Positions 3,486-8,551 of a DNA stretch of 59,422 nt are shown piece after piece. This DNA comes from an uncultured Lachnospiraceae bacterium (GTDB lineage: Bacteria > Bacillota > Clostridia > Lachnospirales > Lachnospiraceae), in assembly GCA_946541955.1 (NCBI GenBank), contig CAMNJZ010000004.1, forward strand, positions 1 to 59,422, written 5' to 3'. The notes under the pieces were generated by a model. The model had not been told where the DNA came from and made no database searches. It was given only the letters and a program-made list of their open reading frames with translations. The position numbers and the translations under genes were made by a program. Numbering within the stretch: position 1 is the first letter of the stretch; each line of letters opens with the position of its first letter.

Positions 3486-4787
3486 TTATGCCTTGCATTC
3501 TGCAATGCCAAGAGGCAGGCCTTCGTTGAAGTTGCGGGCGTTTTCCATGGTGACCGCTGCGATGGCCTGCAGAGCCTCTCTGGTGAAGAAGGCCTGGTGG
3601 GAGGTCAGGATCAGCTGCGGGAACATGGTCAGACGGCCTGTGATGGCAGTCTCCAGCGGCTCGTCGGAACGGTCGGTATAAACGTTCCTGTCTTCGCCTT
3701 CGTAAACATCCAGGGCAACGGCGTGGAATTTGCCCTTCTTCAGAGCAGCGATCAGGGCCTCGGTGTCGATCAGACCGCCTCTGGCGGAGTTGACCAGCAT
3801 GACAGTATCCTTCATCAGGGAGATCGCCTTCTCATCGATCATATGATAGGTTCCCTTCTCGCCCATGATCAGCGGTGCGTGAAGAGATATCAGGTCAGCC
3901 TTCTGGAAGAGCTCTTCCTTGGAGACATAGGTCAGCAGACCTTCGTCCACCAGTCTCTGGTTGGGGAAAGCATCCCAGCCGATGACAGTCATGCCGTAGC
4001 CCTTGCAGATCTGGGCAAAGATCTGGCCGATCCGGCCTGTGCCCACGATGCCGGCTACCTTGTTGTGGAGGTCAACGCCCAGGAGGCCGTTCAGGGCAAA
4101 GTTGTTGTCCTTGACCTTGGTGTAGGCCTTGTGGATCCGGCGGTTGGCTGCCTGGATGATGGTCATGGCGTGCTCGGCAACAGCATAAGGAGAATAAGCG
4201 GGAACACGGAGGACGGTAATGCCATATTCTCTGGCGGCGACCAGGTCAACGTTGTTGAAGCCGGCGCAGCGCAGGAGGATCAGTCTGACGCCGCAGTCAT
4301 GAAGGACCTCAATGACCTCACGGGGCGCTTCGTCGTTTACGAAGATGCAGACGGCGTCATAGCCCTTGGCCAGAGAAGCAGACTCGATGGTCAGACGGCT
4401 GTTGAAATATTTGATCTCGGTATTATAGGTGCCTTCGCCCTTTTCCTTGGCCAGCTCGCTGAAGAAAATGCGGTCATAATCCTTGGTGCCGAAGAAGGCG
4501 ACCTTAAGGATCTGTACCTTCTTCTCCTTTTGCGCGATCCTGCTCAGGACATCCTGGATGCTTGCAAGGCAGGCCTCTTCGTCTGTACCATCTATCGCAA
4601 TATTCAGAGTCTGGCCCTTGGTGGCATGCAGAGCCATGATCTGCAGGACGTTGTTGCCGGCAGCCTTGTTGCCGTTGCACTCAAAGGTCGTGACACTCTT
4701 GAACTCTACACAGGCCTGTGCAAGAAGTGCCGCGGGACGAGCATGAATCCCCAGCGGGCTTTCGACAACGTAAGAGAATGTTTTCAT
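3486..4787 (-). CDS. HPr domain fused to D-lactate dehydrogenase-type 2-hydroxyacid dehydrogenase
   Basis: A 433-residue two-domain protein. Residues 1-88 are an HPr phosphocarrier: PLGIHARPAALLAQ places the phosphorylatable His at exactly residue 15, but residue 46, the regulatory Ser in Firmicute HPr, is Asn. Residues 94-430 are a D-isomer-specific 2-hydroxyacid dehydrogenase close to D-lactate dehydrogenase. It has the NAD site VGTGRIG (248-254), substrate Arg173 in LLRCAGFNN, the VNSARGG block, the DVYEGE block and the catalytic SHQAFFT. It should reduce pyruvate to D-lactate with NADH. The HPr part may sense PTS phosphorylation or pass phosphate on. AAGGAGG precedes the ATG. It is monocistronic with its own terminator. 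Confidence 0.9.
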   Translation of the reverse strand: MKTFSYVVESPLGIHARPAALLAQACVEFKSVTTFECNGNKAAGNNVLQIMALHATKGQTLNIAIDGTDEEACLASIQDVLSRIAQKEKKVQILKVAFFGTKDYDRIFFSELAKEKGEGTYNTEIKYFNSRLTIESASLAKGYDAVCIFVNDEAPREVIEVLHDCGVRLILLRCAGFNNVDLVAAREYGITVLRVPAYSPYAVAEHAMTIIQAANRRIHKAYTKVKDNNFALNGLLGVDLHNKVAGIVGTGRIGQIFAQICKGYGMTVIGWDAFPNQRLVDEGLLTYVSKEELFQKADLISLHAPLIMGEKGTYHMIDEKAISLMKDTVMLVNSARGGLIDTEALIAALKKGKFHAVALDVYEGEDRNVYTDRSDEPLETAITGRLTMFPQLILTSHQAFFTREALQAIAAVTMENARNFNEGLPLGIAECKA

Positions 4788-5049: not shown

Positions 5050-5078
5050 TTGCCAAGCCTTTCCCCGCACTCTAAAAT
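5050..5078 (+). promoter_or_regulatory. Promoter of the RyR/TrkA channel operon
   Basis: TTGCCA (5050-5055), a 17-base spacer and TAAAAT (5073-5078) form a good sigma-A promoter 40 bases upstream of the first channel gene. AAGGAGGT (5106-5113) is the ribosome-binding site. Confidence 0.65.
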
Positions 5079-5117
5079 AGAATCTGTACCCGATGGCCCA
5101 CATGCAAGGAGGTCCCC

Positions 5118-6995
5118 ATGGACAAATGGATCATACCGCTTTTAACCGCCGCCCTCTTTCTGGCTGCCATTTCGACCCTGGCTGCCAAGCCCAGATTTCT
5201 GTCAAGGCTCCTGGGCTTCATGACGATCTTCTCCATGGTCACCGGCATTGTGCTCTACAGCCTGGGCTATCTCTACACCATTCAGGGCAATACGCCCCTG
5301 GTCATTATCCGGGCCGTCTTTTCCACCATGGGCATGTTCCTGGGCAAAAATGACCTGAGCGCCATCAGCGCCGCGCCCTTCTTTGGCAACATATATATTC
5401 TGGGCCTCTTCTGGTTCATCCATTTCTGCGCCTTCTACGCCTTTGCCAGCGCGGCCATCGTCACCCTGGGCGACAGTGCCATCCGGCAGATCCGTCTGGC
5501 TCTTCTGCGCAGAGGGAACCTGTATCTGATTTACGGTGCCAATGAGGATTCCATCAGCTTCGGAAGCGCCCTGATGAAGGACTCCAGGGATTCGGTCGTC
5601 TTTGTGGACGATCTGGCCGACCCCGGCTCCATCCAGGCCATCCAGGCCATCGGCTGTCTTCTTTTATCCTCGCCGGGCGCCGTGGAACCGGAAGGAGCCT
5701 TTTTAAAAAGCATCGGCGCCGCCTCCGGCCGGCGCAGGATCGAGCTCTTTGCCCTGGAGAAGGACTTCACCTCCAACATCCATTATGCAGGCATGTTCCT
5801 GGCCGCCTGTGAAGAGGCCGGCATCCACGCCGAGCAGCTGAGCCTGACCTTCCTGGGCTATGACGAAGTGATCGGAGCCATGTTCCAGGCGGAGGAAGGC
5901 CGCTACGGCTACCAGCGGGTATCGGTCTTCAGCGAGCAGACCCTGGCGGCCAGGCTCCTGATGCGGGCCTATCCCCCTGCGTCTGCCCTGACCTTTGATG
6001 CAAAAGCCCGGGCCACGGAGGACTTTGACGCCCTGATCCTGGGCTTTGGCGGCTTCGGCCAGACCCTTCTGAAGTATCTGATCCAGAACGGACAGTTCGC
6101 CGGCAGCGCCTTCCATGCGGCGGTCTTCGATCCCAATTACGAGATGGTCAGCGGCAGCTTCATGCATGAGTGCGGCCCTGCCCTCCGGAACCTGAAGGGC
6201 GACGTCGAGTTCCACGCCTGCGACAGCCGGTCCGCCGAATGCTACCGCTATCTGACGGAACACCGAAAGACCCTGCGCTATGTGGCCGTCTGTGCCGGCG
6301 CCAACGGCGTCAACGAAGAGCTGACGGCCTCCCTCCAGCGCTTTTTCTTCCGGAACCGGATCTCTCTCCCCATCTTCTGTCTGGACCACGGCGGCATCCG
6401 GGTCCTTTCCGAAAACGGCAGAAAGGTGGAGCACCTGAAGATCTTTACGCCGGATATCCTGGTCTCCAACGCCCTGGACTCCAAGGCCATCGCCCTCAAT
6501 CATTTTTACTGCAGCGGCAACGGCAAAAGCGCCGAGGAAAACTGGAAGGACTGCCGGTATTTTGACAGAATGAGCTCCCGGGCCTCCGCGGATTTCATTG
6601 ATTCCCTCCTGATCGCCGCCCATACAGACCGGGACAGTGTCCTTTCCGGGAACTGGCACCCGGACCAGGAATCCCTGGAAAATCTGGGCCACACCGAGCA
6701 CCTGCGCTGGTGCGCCTTCCACTACACCATGGAATACCGCCCCATGAGCGATACGGTTTTCAAGGCCAGGGCCGAACAGTATCTGAAGGAAAAGGAAGCC
6801 GGCATTGCAAGGCCCATCCGTATTTCCAAGGATACAGAGCACTTCCGCCACGCGGTCCTGCGCAGCTGGGAGGACCTGGATGCACTTTCCGCTGCGGAAA
6901 GCGCCATCACCGGCGAAGCGGTGGATTATAAGAAGAGTACGATCCATACGATCGAACAGATCCCGGAAATCATCCGAAAGGAAGCTGTCTCATGA
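5118..6995 (+). CDS. Membrane protein with degenerate K+ channel-like pore, two Rossmann (TrkA-N-like) domains and RyR-like C-terminus
   Basis: A 625-residue protein. The N-terminus has hydrophobic segments at about 5-23, 33-55 and 92-116. Between the last two lies a loop, VFSTMGMFLGKND, that sits where a K+ filter would be but lacks TVGYG. A cytosolic region follows with two nucleotide-binding-like folds: LYLIYGAN near 135-142 and ALILGFGGFGQ at about 305-315, the latter a TrkA-N-type glycine motif. Residues about 520-590 contain HTEHLRWCAFHYTMEY, like the core helix of the RyR domain (H/E-x-x-W). The next gene overlaps by four bases and has the same layout. I infer a non-conducting or modulatory partner subunit of the channel encoded downstream. 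Confidence 0.75.
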   Translation: MDKWIIPLLTAALFLAAISTLAAKPRFLSRLLGFMTIFSMVTGIVLYSLGYLYTIQGNTPLVIIRAVFSTMGMFLGKNDLSAISAAPFFGNIYILGLFWFIHFCAFYAFASAAIVTLGDSAIRQIRLALLRRGNLYLIYGANEDSISFGSALMKDSRDSVVFVDDLADPGSIQAIQAIGCLLLSSPGAVEPEGAFLKSIGAASGRRRIELFALEKDFTSNIHYAGMFLAACEEAGIHAEQLSLTFLGYDEVIGAMFQAEEGRYGYQRVSVFSEQTLAARLLMRAYPPASALTFDAKARATEDFDALILGFGGFGQTLLKYLIQNGQFAGSAFHAAVFDPNYEMVSGSFMHECGPALRNLKGDVEFHACDSRSAECYRYLTEHRKTLRYVAVCAGANGVNEELTASLQRFFFRNRISLPIFCLDHGGIRVLSENGRKVEHLKIFTPDILVSNALDSKAIALNHFYCSGNGKSAEENWKDCRYFDRMSSRASADFIDSLLIAAHTDRDSVLSGNWHPDQESLENLGHTEHLRWCAFHYTMEYRPMSDTVFKARAEQYLKEKEAGIARPIRISKDTEHFRHAVLRSWEDLDALSAAESAITGEAVDYKKSTIHTIEQIPEIIRKEAVS

Positions 6996-8551
6996 AATTC
7001 AAAAGAAGAAGGTATTACCTGGCCGCCCTGCTCATCTGGCTGGCCCTGCTCCTGATCCTGTGGCTGGCCGAAAGAAATGCAGAGGGCGGCAACATCCATA
7101 CCCTGGGCGACGCCTTATGGTATTTTGTGATCACCGTTTCCACCGTCGGCTACGGAGACCTCTATCCCCATACCCTGATCGGCAGGATCACGGCCTTTCC
7201 CTTCGTTCTGATGAGCGTGGGCCTGCTGGCCTTTCTGATCAGCTCTGTCCTCCTCCTCTTCCGGTCCCGGATCTTCCCGGAGATCGTTCTCAGGACCACC
7301 ATGGACAGACACTGGTATGTTTTTCCCAAGTGGAATTCCCACGCCGAGGCCCTGGCGGAAAAGCTCACGGGCGTCATCGTCAGCGGAACGGAAACCGCGG
7401 CCGATCCCTATTTTTCCCTGGAGCTTCCCGTCCAGAAGATCGTCTCCCGGCGAAAGCCCGGGGACTGCACCATCGTGATCATGGGGGACGACTCCTACCA
7501 GTGCTACCGGGAGGCCCTGGAGCTTTCCCGGACAGGCTGCCGGATCGTCTGCGAGTCCTCCTATGCGGCGGATGCCGCCTCCGACAGGCTGACCCTCTTT
7601 GACGCCGCCGACTGCGGCGCCAGGCTCTACTGGGATGAAAATCCCATTCAGAAGGACGGCGAGGAGATCCTCCTTATCGGAGACGGAAAAAACGCCCGGG
7701 CTCTGCTGAGCCGGGCGGTAATGACCAACGTATACGGACCTCTGGCCCGTGTGACCTATCATCTTTTTGGAGACTGGGACGGCTTCCTGGATTTCCATCA
7801 GGGGCTCTCCGCCGTCATGGACCTGCGCCGGGATCCTGCCGATTCGGATCCTGCGCCCCTAAGGGACGCTCTGATCCTGCACAGCGGCCCCTGGCAGGCA
7901 GGAAGGTCTCTTCTTGCCGGTGCAGACCGGATCATCGTCTGCGGGGATCTGGAAAGTGAAAACGCCGAAACGGCAGGCCAGATCCTGGCCTGGTTCCCCG
8001 TCGCCGGCAGGGTCGACTGCCTCTGCGGCACCGCGCTGCCGGGGGTCCATGCCTTCATGCAGAGGAAGGACCTCTATACGCCCGAAAACGTCATGCAGGA
8101 GCGTCTGAGCAGGACCGCCATCCTCATGAATGATATTTACAGAGCCTCCACCGGCGGGACTGCGCCGGACTGGTCTGCCCTGACGCCTTTCCTTAAGCAG
8201 TCCAACATCGCCTCCGCCGATCATCTGTCCGTCAAGATCCGGATCCTTCTGGCCGGAGAAGCCGTGCCCGGCGCCCTTTCCCTGACCCCGGCCCTCTGCC
8301 GCAGGGCCATGGAGGCCTACAGAGAAAGAAAAGAGCGGGATGCGGACCTCTTCCGCCAGATCGAACACGAACGATGGCTGCGCTTCTATTCCATGTACAA
8401 CTGGGCCTACGGCCCCAAAAAAGATAACCAGCGCCGGCTCCATCCCGATTACCGTCCCTACAAGGCGCTTACACCGTCTGAGCAGGAAAAGGACGATTAT
8501 TCCTGGGAGCTGATCGGCGCCATTGCGGAGCATCTGGAAAAGGCCCCTTAA
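6992..8551 (+). CDS. Two-TM K+ channel with Rossmann domains and C-terminal RyR domain
   Basis: A 519-residue protein. Residues 8-26 and about 64-90 are membrane helices flanking a pore loop with the canonical filter STVGYGDLYP (50-59), so potassium conduction is expected. The cytosolic part has Rossmann-like strands (TIVIMGDD and EILLIGDG). The last 65 residues, including IEHERWLRFYSMYNWAYG, then RLHPDYRPYKAL and SEQEKDD, match the ryanodine-receptor RyR domain pattern. It is coupled to the preceding gene by an ATGA overlap. RyR domains in prokaryotes have been linked by comparative genomics to ligand sensing. What opens this channel is unknown. Confidence 0.85.
   Translation: MKFKRRRYYLAALLIWLALLLILWLAERNAEGGNIHTLGDALWYFVITVSTVGYGDLYPHTLIGRITAFPFVLMSVGLLAFLISSVLLLFRSRIFPEIVLRTTMDRHWYVFPKWNSHAEALAEKLTGVIVSGTETAADPYFSLELPVQKIVSRRKPGDCTIVIMGDDSYQCYREALELSRTGCRIVCESSYAADAASDRLTLFDAADCGARLYWDENPIQKDGEEILLIGDGKNARALLSRAVMTNVYGPLARVTYHLFGDWDGFLDFHQGLSAVMDLRRDPADSDPAPLRDALILHSGPWQAGRSLLAGADRIIVCGDLESENAETAGQILAWFPVAGRVDCLCGTALPGVHAFMQRKDLYTPENVMQERLSRTAILMNDIYRASTGGTAPDWSALTPFLKQSNIASADHLSVKIRILLAGEAVPGALSLTPALCRRAMEAYRERKERDADLFRQIEHERWLRFYSMYNWAYGPKKDNQRRLHPDYRPYKALTPSEQEKDDYSWELIGAIAEHLEKAP

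Follow-up and report, generated by a model that had tools for sequence, protein, structure and literature searches.

Two adjoining genes of an uncultured Lachnospiraceae bacterium, named A and B here, encode a K+ channel with a terminal ryanodine-receptor (RyR) domain (B) and a distant homologue of it (A), and a gene for a TIR protein was found to be the commonest neighbour of this pair in related genomes, which is a new observation. The frequent proximity of the pair to a TIR gene in relatives suggests that a nucleotide alarm signal operates the channel. It is somewhat more probable than not that this is a GsuK-type channel gated by an ADP-ribose signal made by a TIR enzyme and that it serves defence or stress. 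The narrower proposal, in which a heteromeric K+ channel is opened by the TIR enzyme via the RyR domains and the pair is a cyclic-ADP-ribose-gated immune channel, is put forward tentatively, with somewhat less than even confidence.

The window, meaning the whole stretch of 59,422 nucleotides that was analysed, carries gene A at 5118..6995 and gene B at 6992..8551, both on the forward strand. Gene A encodes a protein of 625 aa that begins with helices including a pore-helix-like segment, continues with tandem Rossmann (RCK-like) domains and has an RyR-like C-terminus, and gene B a protein of 519 aa consisting of a K+ channel, tandem RCK-type domains and then an RyR domain. The stop codon of A and the start codon of B share the letters ATGA, a 4-nt overlap. 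An AAGGAGG sequence resembling a ribosome-binding site (5106..5112, forward strand) lies 5 nt upstream of the ATG of A. A promoter-like match at 5050-5078 was at chance level (1 found, 1.3 expected). Both flanking genes are on the strand opposite to A and B, one for an HPr/2-hydroxyacid dehydrogenase protein before them and one for a glycosyltransferase after them.

By sequence and model, the product of gene B is a K+ channel of the two-helix kind, in which tandem RCK-type domains are followed by a terminal RyR domain. The predicted model (pLDDT 91.5) contains a helix (residues 2-27), a pore helix (38-50), the filter, a further helix (62-102), then a pair of Rossmann domains and finally the helices of the RyR domain. 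The full STVGYGD selectivity filter reported in the first-pass annotation was confirmed at S50-D56 (7139..7159, forward strand), and T.GYGD was found in 85 of the 93 B proteins. The tandem Rossmann/RCK-like region, delimited on the model, spans residues 106-378 (7307..8125, forward strand), and the RyR domain residues 433-517 (8288..8542, forward strand), with the core at I457-G474 as previously annotated. The assignment of this domain is based on Pfam, on phmmer comparison with solved RyR structures and on the pocket residues described below. In Pfam, the protein matched Ion_trans_2 (E 3e-13) and RyR PF02026 (E 8.7e-5), the latter with 23.1 bits, short of the curated gathering cut-off of 27.4. 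The 37 B proteins in alignment A5, that of the window included, all matched PF02026 at E<=0.01 (best 5.4e-9), and likewise Ion_trans_2 and Ion_trans. When the last 93 residues were compared by phmmer with solved ryanodine receptors, a whole-chain E of 4.8e-12 was obtained (6x33; best single domain 2.7e-5), and the bacterial or phage-type RyR structures 35tm and 3nrt were matched at E 3e-7 and 5.4e-4. No other ryanodine-receptor domain was present among the Pfam matches of B or A, each chain having one RyR domain, and the PADLOC models matched neither protein.

The A protein is a distant homologue of B with a channel-like membrane fold and a divergent RyR-like end. The earlier proposal that both proteins follow the same plan held for the channel-like fold, the tandem Rossmann domains and the RyR-like end, with the correction that A has no K+ filter. 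Residues 71-79 of A, MGMFLGKND (5328..5354, forward strand), lie at the end of the pore-helix-like helix 59-73 and beyond it, the position of the filter in channels. The K+ filter is absent from A, and an MF.G.N motif occupies its position, with M73, F74 and G76 conserved in at least 90% of 37 A proteins. A second K+-selective pore formed by A was rejected, as no TVGYG-type filter was found in the membrane parts listed (60 of the 65 A proteins, one incomplete); a looser filter pattern gave a single match, in L094, outside its listed membrane part.

The tandem Rossmann/RCK-like region of A, residues 133-452 (5514..6473, forward strand), was visible in its AlphaFold2 model (pLDDT 91.5). The middle regions had been annotated as TrkA-type; no Pfam match to TrkA_N was obtained for either window protein, where the RCK fold is taken from the predicted models, but weak matches occurred in 18 of the 37 A proteins (best E 0.002). 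The divergent RyR-like domain of A comprises residues 517-625 (6666..6992, forward strand) and was delimited by profile comparison with B and by its H-W-H-D residues. In hhalign, this end matched that of B at 99.8% (E 2.2e-29); no PDB match of the RyR kind was found for the C-terminus of A, the homology being by profile to B. Of the two RyR C-termini first proposed, PF02026 recovered that of B, below its cut-off, but not that of A: searches of A against Pfam, NCBIfam and PADLOC returned nothing at E<=1, and Pfam RyR did not appear in the list of families for the 37 A proteins, which showed 25 of 33. Foldseek gave GsuK as the best match of both models, with an alignment identity of 10-15%. The lists of PDB matches barely probe the RyR ends.

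The genome-contig scan yielded 182 relatives of B, and 80 loci were kept, mostly from MAGs labelled Lachnospiraceae, Oscillospiraceae, Clostridiales, Mogibacterium, Solobacterium or Butyrivibrio, many of them of rumen or gut origin. Gene A adjoined B in 40 of the 75 non-duplicate B loci, so the two genes do recur together. Six duplicate loci had been removed before these counts, and 20 of 131 loci with weak A or B matches were classed as "other" and excluded from the pair counts. Over all loci fetched, 46 pairs were found (35 in the order A>B and 11 in the order B>A), with a gap within 20 bp in 34. This tight recurrence and the GsuK-nearest folds support the original reading of a two-gene channel system of the RCK/RyR type. 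Neither outcome named beforehand as refuting it was observed, since B has an RyR match and A and B are found side by side. The distances among A proteins and among B proteins correlated at 0.879, a value reached by none of 2000 permutations, which indicates a shared history, not contact; A and B may pair within one channel.

The distribution of the genes is patchy. Of the 392 genomes searched in the order, 46 matched the A alignment at E<=1e-3, and 20 did so at E<=1e-70, a cut set by ourselves; in a phylum sample, 2 of 398 matched at E<=1e-30. Of 150 genomes in a family sample, 60 gave matches to the full B query at E<=0.001, most of them confined to the pore. One B clade of 24 members (support 1.0) occurs without A. 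Among 20 A-bearing genomes, chosen mainly for having A on its own, 17 gave no relative of B at E<=1e-30; the idea that A is always partnered by B was therefore rejected, and A is not always dependent on B. Solo A genes, some with an adjoining TIR gene, may represent a second mode of action for A. The viral contigs searched held no relative of the pair. The RyR end of B matched 132 phage records at E<=0.1; RyR-like stretches are not so rare, which amends the first-pass statement on the rarity of RyR domains in bacteria.

When the ORFs within 6 kb were clustered, the commonest neighbour was a TIR protein, present in 41 of the 131 loci at a median distance of 87 bp. In this cluster, 49 of the 50 ORFs matched the TIR model, and 59 of the 131 loci had a TIR ORF when all were counted. 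A TIR gene lay within 6 kb of 26 of the 40 pairs (same strand in 20) and within 300 bp of 17 (same strand in 13); none was seen within 6 kb in the other 14, where some contigs are short. Outside the A-less B clade, a TIR gene was found within 6 kb in 32 of 57 B loci. The TIR model behind the pair counts and the following densities was built from TIRs of the same loci: it gave 33 matches in 500 kb near the loci, 8 in 459 kb at greater distance and none in the 263 kb of 20 control loci. The test was repeated with Pfam TIR_2 on a set of 20 A-bearing genomes, made up of 19 of the 46 order matches (17 of those at E<=1e-70, together with G281 and G311) and G058; the set was chosen since the loci had already been fetched, with some TIR neighbours known at the time of choice. 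TIR_2 detected a TIR in all 20, and in 12 of them it lay no more than 3 kb from A or B. As controls, 20 loci of plain K+ channels were taken from 19 genomes of the family, one of which is that of the window; TIR_2 matched in 11 of these 19 genomes and in none of the 20 control loci. Among the 12 positive genomes, the TIR was near A in 11 and near B only in G490; it was 2.2 kb away in G281 and barely within the 3-kb cut-off in G343.

Additionally, 44 TIR ORFs of several subfamilies were located within 300 bp of A, B or a related RyR ORF, 36 of them on the same strand. The glutamate of the TIR motif S..(C/V)..E, which we take to be the catalytic residue, was kept in 42 of the 44. Several gene orders were observed: TIR-A-B (L105), A-B-TIR (L043), TIR-B-A (L178) and B-TIR-A (L095). 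The B proteins grouping with that of the window were those of L103, L104 and L105; a TIR gene lay 1,584 bp away in L103 and 24 bp away in L105, and none was seen in L104, whose contig ends soon after B.

The early suggestion of stress or defence signalling was strengthened by the TIR neighbours and by the conserved pocket, but not by the window's own contig, on which no TIR was found. Five TIRs were detected elsewhere in this genome (assembly of 2.24 Mb in 164 contigs, 85% complete). One of them (C63, 1102 aa) aligns at full length with the pair-linked TIR of L124, with 39% identity over 1,124 columns, and passes the Pfam ThsB_TIR cut-off (26.4 vs 21.2 bits), which only 4 of the 8 TIRs scanned, pair-linked or from the window's genome, pass. 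A TIR protein encoded elsewhere in the genome may serve the A/B pair in trans.

The strongest alternative, which we consider unlikely, is a homeostatic K+ channel gated at its RCK domains by general adenine nucleotides (ADP, NAD+), with RyR domains sensing ADP-ribose as a by-product and with no defence role. It agrees with the nearest Foldseek match, since GsuK is gated by adenine nucleotides, ADP/NAD+, according to PMC3510474, with the position of the window pair between metabolic-type genes on a TIR-free contig, and with the B clade that occurs without A. Nevertheless, the linkage to TIR genes of several subfamilies in several gene orders, and the patchy spread of A in the order and phylum samples, argue against it.

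The pocket of the RyR domains provided a further line of evidence. According to a preprint of May 2026 (PMC13232231), phage RyR-domain proteins cleave or sequester 2'/3'cADPR, and the residues that hold the signal in RyDEP are H75, W78, H100 and D117. The same residues with the same spacing (+3, +25, +42) were found in B as H459, W462, H484 and D501, the RyDEP numbers being taken from the preprint text. The equivalents in A are H528, W531, H578 and D603, with an insertion relative to the RyDEP spacing; the first three were kept in 65 of 65 A proteins and D603 in 56, so that the fourth pocket residue was missing in 9. All four residues were present in 46 of the 47 B proteins from loci with A, in 9 of 10 from loci with a TIR only and in 12 of 36 from loci with neither. 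Of the 26 B proteins with an altered pocket, 24 fall into a single clade (support 1.0), so that pocket loss amounts to about one event, and a Fisher value for these counts is not a fair probability. Outside this A-less clade, the pocket was kept in 67 of 69 B proteins.

This conservation, together with that of H, W and H throughout the A proteins, counts against a quite improbable explanation in which the TIRs act on the channel through protein contact or by depleting NAD+, and the channel itself responds to something else, such as voltage, osmotic stress or NAD+ loss. In its favour, the linked TIRs examined often have beta-propeller-like or LRR parts, which would suit sensors or scaffolds. 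Most improbable of all is a reading in which the RyR domains are RyDEP-like glycosidases that destroy the TIR signal, so that the channel would switch the response off or limit its own effect. Both proteins retain the H and D of the RyDEP catalytic dyad at the frequencies given above, so cleavage instead of gating is possible, but such residues alone do not predict cleavage, since, in PMC13232231, 6 of 8 phage homologues tested bound signals and none except RyDEP cleaved them despite conserved residues.

In the favoured reading of a channel gated by a TIR-made signal, A and B would be two homologous subunits of one ligand-gated channel of the GsuK type, with the conducting pore contributed by B, and A, which lacks the K+ filter, acting as a regulatory or mixed-pore subunit. 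The sensor would be the RyR domain of each subunit, which may bind an ADP-ribose-type nucleotide, such as a cyclic ADP-ribose isomer or a relative, made from NAD+ by the TIR protein upon stress or phage attack. The gating ring would then open the pore, and the resulting K+ flow could lead to a drop in membrane potential or to cell arrest. The signal would be Thoeris-like with an ion channel as effector, and in the window's genome the TIR would act from a different locus. Counting against this reading are the TIR-free contig of the window, the 14 pairs with no TIR seen within 6 kb, the genomes with A but no B, the A proteins that lack the fourth pocket residue, the retained RyDEP dyad, the TIRs that fall short of the ThsB_TIR cut-off, and the negative results with PADLOC and the viral contigs.

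If the narrower proposal is true, the pair would be a prokaryotic counterpart to the disputed connection of cADPR with animal ryanodine receptors. NADases are known outputs of TIR signalling, as are caspase-like proteases according to work cited in PMC13232231; an ion channel bearing RyR sensors would be an output of a new type. The same preprint calls for studies of whether cyclic ADP-ribose acts on ryanodine receptors via the R12 domain. With its single RyR domain per chain, a small bacterial channel would bring ligand, pocket and pore into one purified system, and it might give phages a further reason to carry RyR-domain proteins.

Among known systems, GsuK, a dual-RCK K+ channel of Geobacter, resembles A and B in having a two-helix pore and tandem RCK domains in one chain. 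GsuK is not known to have an RyR domain, a gene for a second subunit or a connection with TIR, and the plant channels CASTOR/DMI1 are not known to carry an RyR domain. Thoeris resembles the pair in that a TIR gene lies near a gene with a likely sensor of the ADP-ribose type, and differs from the window in its same-operon TIR, absent from this contig. To our knowledge, none of the known Thoeris effectors (SIR2-SLOG, macro-domain, caspase-like) is a K+ channel, whereas two channel-like subunits with RyR ends are present here; effector domains of these ThsA-type kinds gave no Pfam or PADLOC match in A or B. Among the papers that the literature searches listed, none was recognised as a description of a TIR-linked RyR channel, a comparison that leaves aside newer Thoeris types and Yirmiya et al. 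2025 (doi 10.64898/2025.12.03.692087), a work on TIR-based systems cited in PMC13232231 that may bear on priority. RyDEP and the phage RyR proteins share with B an RyR domain with H-W-H-D ligand residues at equal spacing; in PMC13232231, RyDEP serves phages as an anti-defence enzyme and two of the relatives tested act as sponges, whereas in A and B the RyR domain ends a bacterial membrane channel. Animal ryanodine receptors, like B, carry an RyR (R12-type) domain on a cation channel; unlike them, B is a small K+ channel with a single RyR domain per chain.

An approximately 880-aa conserved protein followed the gene pair A-B (the channel-like subunit without a K+ filter and the RyR-type K+ channel) in five loci from other genomes, four labelled Mogibacterium (L128, L149, L155 and L164) and one labelled Clostridiales (L157), and in all of them this arrangement lay near TIR-type genes. 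At another locus (L053:6806-13706), TIR proteins came third in order, after an A-type protein and a second protein whose HECGH motif resembles that of metalloproteases. Upstream of A in the window, the gene at 3486-4787 (minus strand) encoded, according to Pfam domain matches, an HPr (PTS) domain fused N-terminally to a D-2-hydroxyacid dehydrogenase in a single protein, which looks like an unusual arrangement.

The K+ filter was lost in the B-like proteins of L046, L048 and L049, and RyR-like ends were carried by other proteins of L048 (553 aa) and L050 (920 aa); TIR-type genes also adjoined these variant genes at the four loci. A TIR gene likewise adjoined A in L087, L089, L094, L097 and L099, where B was found neither nearby nor genome-wide at E<=1e-30, and here A may act on its own.

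Furthermore, 24 B-type RyR channels (L166, L038, L039, L114 and 20 others) formed a single clade lacking A. In this clade the pocket residue D501 (numbering of B in the window) was altered, and in a subclade H484 was replaced by D; these pocket changes perhaps reflect a different ligand.
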